64,000 nucleotides of DNA from Haloplanus salinus (GTDB lineage Archaea; Halobacteriota; Halobacteria; Halobacteriales; Haloferacaceae). The stretch is from contig NZ_QPHM01000001.1 of NCBI RefSeq assembly GCF_003336245.1, positions 62,001 through 126,000 of the forward strand, in the 5' to 3' direction. The position numbers and the translations under genes were made by a program. The notes under the pieces are model-generated. The model was not told the origin of the DNA. It saw nothing but the letters and a program-made list of their open reading frames with translations, and searched no databases. This document shows, in pieces, positions 13,103-14,767 of the stretch. How positions within the stretch are numbered: the stretch's first letter is position 1; each line of letters opens with the position of its first letter.

Positions 13103-14767
13103 ATGAGCCACGACGGGGGTCGAACGGAGACGAGCGTCGATAGGATCATGGCCGAGGGACGGGCGTCGGGATCGGATCGGCGAAGCGTCGTCCAGGGGAA
13201 CGTCGCGGCGGCCACGCTGGTCGCCGACATCGTCGAGACGACGCTCGGCCCCCGCGGCCGCGACAAGGTCGTCTACCGCAAGCCCGAGAAGGAAGAGGAG
13301 GGACTCGACGACTACTTCCAAGTGACCAATAGCGGGGCGTACATCCTCAAAAACGTCCCCTTCGAGGCACCTGCGGCCTCCATGGTCGCCCGCGTCGCCG
13401 CGGCCCAGGACGACCGTCACGGCGACGGCACGACCACCGCGACGGTGTACGCCGGGCGGATTCTGGCAGCGGCGGGCGATCTGATCGAACGGGGTTTTCA
13501 CCCCCGAACCGTCATCGACGGTATCGACGGGGCCGTTCCACTGATCGACGACGCCATCGACGTGGCCGCCGTCCCCGTCGACGACGGCGACCGGGACCGG
13601 GTCGCCGACGTCGTCCACACGACCCTCGGCGGCACCGTCGCCGAACCGCTCGCCGATCGACTCGTCGCGTGGATTCACGACGCGGCCGCCGACGGGAGCC
13701 TCGACCCCGAGACCGTCCACGCCGAATCCTTGCGGGCCGGGAGTCTCTCGGACAGCGAGTTCGTCGACGGTCTCGTTCTCAAGAAGTCGTTCGCCGGCAA
13801 CTACCAGCCGTCGTCGCTGACCGACGCCACGATCGCGATGACGACGCAGGCCGTCACCGCGTCCCAACAGGTCGGCGGCCGCGTCGAGTCCGACGCCGGT
13901 GCCGACGCCGGAAAGACGCAGTCGCTGCAGGTGTCGGCGACCGACGCCGCCGACCTCCAGCGGTTCACGGAGTACGAACGCGGCGTGATCGCGGAGCGCG
14001 TCCAACCGCTCGTCGACGCCGGCGTCGACGTTCTCCTCGCCGCCAACCGGGTCGACGAGGACACCGTGGCCCACCTCGACCGCCACGGAATCGCCGTCGT
14101 CCGCAACGCCGACGAGGCACGGCTGCGGGCACTCGCCGCCGCCACCGACGGGACGCTCCTCCCTCATCTCGGCGCGTTCGAAGCGAGCGACGCCGGGACC
14201 GTCGGAGGGATCACCCGGCGCGAGTATCCCGAGGTCGAGCAGGAGGCGATTTTCCTGCGGAACCTGCCGGGGAACCTCGCCTCGGTCCTCCTCCACGGGA
14301 GCACGTGGATGGCGGGGTGGGAGGCCAAGCGAAACGTGAACGCCGCCGTCGCCGCCGCGGCGTCGGCGCTGGAGACGGGGCAGATCGTCCCGGGTGGCGG
14401 CGCAACGGAGATGGCGATCGCGGGACACCTGCGGGACGCCGCGCCGGGCGTCGGCGGGCGCGAGTCGATGGTCATCGAGGCCATCGCCGACGCCGTCGAA
14501 GCCGTCCCTCGCCTCCTCGCCCGCAACGCGGGCATGGACCCGACCGACGCGATCCTCGACCTCCGGACCGCGCACAGTCGCGGCGAGAAAGACGCCTCCG
14601 TCCTCGGCCTGAAGCGCGAACTCGGGCACGCCCTCGACGCTGGCGTCGTCGAACCCGCGGCGTTCAAGCGGGGGTCCGTCTACACCGCCGCCGGCGCCGC
14701 GACCACCGTCCTCCGCATCGACGACGTGATCACCGGCATCGACGTGACGGTTAGCGAGTCGCCGTAG
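13103..14767 (+). CDS. Divergent thermosome-like chaperonin without ATPase aspartates
   Basis: A 554-residue group II chaperonin-like protein. LGPRGRDK (48-55), GDGTTTATV (107-115), the apical-domain match (AIFLRNLPGNLASVLLHGS) and VPGGGATE (429-436) place it in the TCP-1/thermosome family. Two catalytic positions are changed. The TNDG aspartate (GroEL D52) is Ser77 in TNSG, and the aspartate preceding the GGG loop by the conserved distance (GroEL D398) is Ala414 in NAAVAAAAS. The stem loop after residue 57 is also longer (RKPEKEEEGLDDYFQ). The phosphate loop looks intact, so it may bind but hardly hydrolyse ATP. It stands between an SDR and an ABC ATPase. A decoy, a regulatory subunit of the true thermosome or a structural role are possible. 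Confidence 0.85.
   Translation: MSHDGGRTETSVDRIMAEGRASGSDRRSVVQGNVAAATLVADIVETTLGPRGRDKVVYRKPEKEEEGLDDYFQVTNSGAYILKNVPFEAPAASMVARVAAAQDDRHGDGTTTATVYAGRILAAAGDLIERGFHPRTVIDGIDGAVPLIDDAIDVAAVPVDDGDRDRVADVVHTTLGGTVAEPLADRLVAWIHDAAADGSLDPETVHAESLRAGSLSDSEFVDGLVLKKSFAGNYQPSSLTDATIAMTTQAVTASQQVGGRVESDAGADAGKTQSLQVSATDAADLQRFTEYERGVIAERVQPLVDAGVDVLLAANRVDEDTVAHLDRHGIAVVRNADEARLRALAAATDGTLLPHLGAFEASDAGTVGGITRREYPEVEQEAIFLRNLPGNLASVLLHGSTWMAGWEAKRNVNAAVAAAASALETGQIVPGGGATEMAIAGHLRDAAPGVGGRESMVIEAIADAVEAVPRLLARNAGMDPTDAILDLRTAHSRGEKDASVLGLKRELGHALDAGVVEPAAFKRGSVYTAAGAATTVLRIDDVITGIDVTVSESP

Follow-up and report, generated by a model that had tools for sequence, protein, structure and literature searches.

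A divergent haloarchaeal group II chaperonin lacking both ATPase aspartates, encoded in an import and catabolic gene cluster

Chaperonin action is generally held to need the turnover of ATP. In group II chaperonins, closure of the lid requires hydrolysis, and a non-hydrolysable analogue closes it poorly (PMC5019054). A hydrolysis-deficient protein of this group is the engineered D386A mutant of the archaeal chaperonin Mm-cpn (PDB 3izh, 3j02), which assembles and binds ATP without hydrolysing it, and is locked in an ATP-bound, open state (PMC5019054). The mutant neither complements GroEL nor supports the growth of E. coli (PMC5019054), so a ring without hydrolysis makes a poor general chaperonin. 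In group I, the ATPase-deficient GroEL double mutant D52A/D398A stabilises the symmetric ("football") complex with GroES (PMC5941174). When single subunits are disabled instead, as in eight CtCCT complexes that each carry one catalytic Asp-to-Ala subunit, double rings form and folding is nearly normal (PMC5413064).

Natural paralogues with changes at such sites are also known. The vertebrate proteins BBS6, BBS10, BBS12 and CCT8L are group II paralogues that keep the ATP-binding Gly-Pro and have lost hydrolysis-site residues (PMC2846930), and chlamydial GroEL2 and GroEL3 have diverged at the regions of ATP binding and hydrolysis, diverged chaperonins being able to change role (PMC1892554). Bacteria also possess chaperonins that are dedicated to one catabolic operon, namely the MmoG-type GroEL paralogues of soluble diiron monooxygenase operons (PMC9324122). 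With natural ATPase-deficient proteins of group II, the capacities that remain to a chaperonin once hydrolysis is gone could be tested directly, and the protein considered here belongs to a class that would supply natural counterparts of the D386A mutant.

The gene, referred to as P0001 (13103..14767, + strand), lies in a window of 64,000 nucleotides, the whole stretch of Haloplanus salinus DNA that was analysed, and is one of seven chaperonin genes in this genome (G000). Its intact reading frame encodes 554 amino acids of group II type, with a match to PF00118 (Cpn60_TCP1) over residues 40-544 (350 bits, E 1.9e-104). The nearest PDB structures are Mm-cpn and an ancestral group II chaperonin, to which the protein is 32% identical in a fold alignment. 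Scores of 83-91 bits with GroEL models, and of 320 with the thermosome, speak against a group I ancestry. The protein falls well under the curated thermosome cut-offs (TIGR02339, 320 vs 671 bits; NF041082, 318 vs 450; NF041083, 286 vs 400) and is thus a divergent paralogue. With the archaeal group II chaperonins (thermosome, haloarchaeal CCT1-3, Mm-cpn) it shares fold, domain order and the LGP, GDGTTT and PGGG loops at 34-39% identity; unlike them, it has lost both catalytic aspartates and the lysine of the nucleotide-sensing loop, has gained insertions of 8 and 15 residues, has no Gly-Met tail, and sits in an import and catabolic cluster. An AlphaFold model built on a 12-sequence alignment (pLDDT 71, pTM 0.63) supports the equatorial domain and part of the intermediate domain only: the apical domain is poorly modelled, and the lid region, which is present in the alignment, has a pLDDT below 50. 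The model was left out of the reasoning on mechanism.

The original prediction held that both aspartates needed for hydrolysis are replaced while the nucleotide-binding loops are kept, and alignment with Mm-cpn and some 80 core subunits of haloarchaea bears this out. Ser77 (codon 13331..13333, +) aligns with Mm-cpn D60 and GroEL D52, in the context TNSG against TND-G in Mm-cpn; Ala414 (14342..14344, +) aligns with Mm-cpn D386 and GroEL D398, in the context NVNAA. No other aspartate occupies either site: there is no acidic residue within three positions of Ser77, and the positions neighbouring Ala414 carry none either. Misalignment was ruled out by several independent alignments, and the register at Ala414 is beyond doubt because the block from there to PGGG is ungapped. 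The loops LGP (residues 48-50), GDGTTT (107-112; 13421..13438, +) and PGGG (430-433) are all intact. The stem insertion, predicted at about eight residues, is exactly eight (PEKEEEGL, residues 61-68; 13283..13306, +) and follows Mm-cpn residue 51 in the equatorial stem loop; a further insertion of 15 residues at the base of the lid (258-272; 13874..13918, +) had escaped the prediction. The lysine of the sensing loop (Mm-cpn K161, region TSITGKGA) is threonine in P0001.

Relatives were sought in about 400 distinct haloarchaeal genomes (392 and 8 further congeners), with additional searches of the family of one relative and of a 391-genome draw from the class that overlaps the earlier set; scoring in the 392- and 391-genome searches covered the three top candidates of each genome. 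Two were found. One, from the same genus (G293), is 83% identical with Ser and Ala at the two sites, and the other, from another family (G045), is 43% identical with Asn at both, so the substitutions are shared by relatives and are not an accident of strain or sequencing. Both relatives carry 7-8 extra residues in the stem loop, which unites the three proteins as one family; the more distant one retains the sensing-loop lysine. All remaining matches in these genomes, among the three best candidates of each in the main searches, are at most 39% identical and core-like. No close relative was found in GTDB 220 contigs, none in IMG/VR viral contigs, and none above 37% identity among PLSDB plasmids; recent spread by viruses or plasmids is disfavoured on the last two counts.

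Core subunits, which every sampled haloarchaeon carries, provide the control. Both aspartates are invariant in 82 of 82 of them and are missing from both relatives as well, which makes a chance loss in P0001 untenable. Among 125 core-invariant positions present in P0001, 35, including the two aspartates, are changed in all three family members. Pairwise dN/dS between P0001 and the congeneric orthologue is 0.24 over 551 codons (Nei-Gojobori); in the same genome pair the three core subunits give 0.06, 0.13 and 0.16, most cluster genes 0.12-0.17 and the iron-type alcohol dehydrogenase 0.22. The gene evolves faster than core subunits and is under purifying selection; a pseudogene is disfavoured by the same ratio.

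It had been noted that the gene adjoins a transporter ATPase outside the usual thermosome neighbourhood. The ATPase is there (14823..15938, +), an ABC importer component of UgpC/MalK type with an orthologue in the G045 cluster, but the wording understated the setting. To the left of the chaperonin lie an SDR dehydrogenase (12142..12924, -), also conserved in G045, a solute-binding protein (3053..4606, -), two ABC permeases (1183..2100, -, start approximate; 294..1193, -, MalG/GlcU type) and the 5' end of a BKACE gene (1..229, -), the remainder of which lies left of the window (G000:C1:61294-62229) and is followed by a 3-hydroxyacyl-CoA dehydrogenase gene; the last two are found in G293 and G045 as well. 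The BKACE and hydroxyacyl dehydrogenase genes suggest that the imported compound is a beta-hydroxy acid that is then cleaved. Between the solute-binding protein and the SDR gene are an IclR-type regulator (8821..9621, +) and a sulfopropanediol-dehydrogenase/HisD-like (HpsN-like) gene (9623..10858, +) that is broken by deletions and by a stop codon in frame, its G293 orthologue (L052:11939-13261, -) being intact. The cluster holds no partner chaperonin gene within the window. A TATA-like element, ttttatatta (14792..14801, +), stands about 22-31 nt ahead of the importer ATPase start, so that this gene may have its own promoter, and a chaperonin-ATPase operon is no longer claimed because the box falls between the two genes.

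The linkage to one pathway of importer, SDR, BKACE and 3-hydroxyacyl-CoA dehydrogenase is conserved in three genomes and two families. G293 has the same gene set as the window. In G045, on a 404-kb contig, the SDR, importer ATPase, solute-binding protein, both permeases, a gamma-carbonic-anhydrase-like gene, the hydroxyacyl dehydrogenase and the chaperonin run in one direction, and the BKACE gene is divergent from them. Between G000 and G045 the solute-binding protein is 58% and the chaperonin 43% identical. Among 293 haloarchaeal genomes (best five candidates per genome), the solute-binding protein is found at E<=1e-80 in two, exactly the two chaperonin-bearing genomes of the draw. Downstream of the importer ATPase are two iron-type alcohol dehydrogenases (16555-17772 and 18595-19827), one of them distant from every named model (105 bits vs a cut-off of 537). 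In G000 and in the distant G045 alike, the genes proB and proA (L108:54-2223, L053:3545-6489) are no more than about 10 kb away from the chaperonin cluster, which reflects either old synteny common to both or a preferred site.

Non-core chaperonins of haloarchaea are, as a rule, linked to catabolic clusters. A formamidase gene stands beside all eight chromosomal members of one non-core clade, against 0 of 40 core regions, and beside plasmid members too; H. salinus has such a chaperonin (L004, beside the formamidase at L177). In this fmdA-linked clade (L177-L181, L183-L185, L124, L131-L134) an AmiS/UreI transporter is often present, and some members have lost D398. Other non-core neighbours comprise GH4 with a UgpC importer, mandelate racemase/dehydratase sets with importers, further importers and acyl-CoA enzymes. 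In genome G027, a very divergent chaperonin (L182:6910-8538, -) lies between PxpB-like and ABC ATPase genes, in a setting of PxpB/PxpC-like genes with an importer. An ABC ATPase signature occurs within about 7 kb in five of eight non-core clades (one representative each) and in 0 of 44 core regions (Fisher p 2e-5), a comparison in which the plasmid loci were hand-picked from P0001 matches, the core controls are mostly chromosomal and the motif is a rough detector.

The loss of catalytic aspartates is likewise wider than the single gene for which it was predicted: the claim holds for P0001, which is one of several non-core chaperonins that have lost one or both. A second clade, named after L006 of H. 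salinus, keeps neither aspartate in the 14 members sampled from about ten genera (among them Haloplanus, Haloarcula, Halobium, Haloquadratum, Haladaptatus, Halegenticoccus, Halosimplex and Halomarina), with Ser or Ala at one site and Ala, Ser, Thr or Arg at the other. It adjoins ABC importers and sugar-acid enzymes. In 11 of 11 genome loci, and in Halomarina, its gene lies tail-to-tail with a second chaperonin, the L007 type, in which D52 is kept in most members and D398 in most; L007 of H. salinus keeps both. The divergent H. salinus pair L006/L007 (L054) lies between an AOR-PfkB-DHDPS set and genes for a solute-binding protein and an ABC ATPase. Such tail-to-tail pairs (L054:6437-9748, at G000:C1:622.4-625.8 kb; L190-L200) stand beside a solute-binding protein and ABC ATPase, often with AOR/PfkB/DHDPS.

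With both aspartates lost, the binding loops kept and the loss shared by relatives, P0001 is most likely a chaperonin that is naturally deficient in ATPase activity, and this part of the original prediction stands. Its precedent, GroEL D52A/D398A, does not: the same two sites are replaced there, but that protein is of group I, depends on GroES and stabilises a closed complex, and group II behaves differently. The closer guide is Mm-cpn D386A, in which the same catalytic site is removed and which stays open, so "ATP-locked" would here describe a ring that stays open and able to capture, or a subunit that is silent within a mixed ring, rather than a long-lived closed cage. D386A is nevertheless an engineered single change in a core protein, whereas the P0001 family has changed at two sites and at 33 other core-invariant positions, and P0001 is predicted to be ATP-bound and non-hydrolysing.

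We propose, from sequence and gene context, that P0001 is a non-hydrolysing holdase or assembly subunit dedicated to its pathway, a reading to which we would assign a probability of about 45%. The protein would be made alongside the ABC importer and the dehydrogenases and BKACE enzyme for one imported compound. To judge from its motifs it would bind ATP, with turnover probably below a useful rate; by the example of Mm-cpn D386A, ATP would stabilise an open ring or ring segment, which would capture, hold or help to assemble the cluster's own proteins as putative clients. P0001 would do without the cycle of hydrolysis and lid closure through which the three core chaperonins work. This reading is favoured by the double loss with intact loops, the D386A precedent, the conserved linkage, the dN/dS of 0.24 and the existence of a second double-loss clade beside importers. 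It is also favoured by the position of Mm-cpn M223, which is Q, V or E in the P0001 family; all substitutions tested there in Mm-cpn resemble M223I, which reduces ATPase activity and favours the open ring. The failure of D386A to support E. coli growth, the broken HpsN-like gene of the pathway in this strain and the possible separate promoter of the importer ATPase weaken it.

A serious rival, although rather unlikely in our view, is that P0001 works as a silent subunit in mixed rings with CCT1-3, contributing a client-specific apical domain while its neighbours hydrolyse ATP. The assembly and nearly normal folding activity of CCT rings that contain one Asp-to-Ala subunit make this plausible, core subunits are at hand in every haloarchaeon sampled, and the double-loss L006-type gene regularly faces a chaperonin that mostly keeps its aspartates. 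The window cluster, however, offers no partner gene. Chaperonin stem loops make contacts within the ring, and the eight-residue insertion in that loop could hinder mixing.

P0001 might instead be a slow but cycling chaperonin in which Ser or Asn, or some other residue, provides enough hydrolysis. Single GroEL Asp mutants retain residual activity, and P0001 has kept the binding loops and, in sequence, a lid region. We consider this improbable: both aspartates are gone in all three proteins, neither site has an acidic neighbour, and D386A by itself blocks the Mm-cpn cycle. Departure from folding altogether, to become an ATP-sensing scaffold or regulator of the cluster, would suit the tight linkage to the importer and the role changes of other diverged chaperonins; with no DNA-binding or signalling domain in P0001 and full three-domain chaperonin length kept, it appears very improbable. 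A decaying gene that has lost its activity, an idea prompted by the disrupted HpsN-like neighbour and the faster evolution, is barely credible in view of open frames in three species, purifying selection and the loss of the same two sites in a relative at 43% identity that shares the cluster.

The other described systems resemble P0001 in part. The BBS proteins and CCT8L are eukaryotic, have ciliary or assembly roles, belong to no operon and are distant in sequence; chlamydial GroEL2 and GroEL3 are of group I and changed at other residues; MmoG-type proteins are bacterial and of group I, and are likened here by operon role. Open-access papers yielded none that pairs the thermosome with formamidase, or with haloarchaea and a catabolic gene cluster, subscription papers being outside the scope; the set of pathway-linked archaeal chaperonins is apparently undescribed. 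It would give archaea a parallel to the operon-dedicated chaperonins of bacteria, and the clusters suggest particular proteins as candidate clients; for core chaperonins, clients are difficult to identify. We suggest tentatively, at slightly less than even odds, that haloarchaea keep, in addition to the three core chaperonins, others assigned to single catabolic clusters and that hydrolysis has been given up repeatedly among these, with at least two stably maintained double-loss clades, one of which is a conserved two-gene pair. On that reading, chaperonin action without ATP turnover would be a natural and selected mode. D398 alone is changed in nine further sequences beyond those with the double loss, and by parsimony on a 61-row tree, D398 has changed a minimum of six times and D52 a minimum of two. 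That tree displays two double-loss clades, in a region where long branches meet, and the AU test (p 0.18) does not reject a double loss that arose once.
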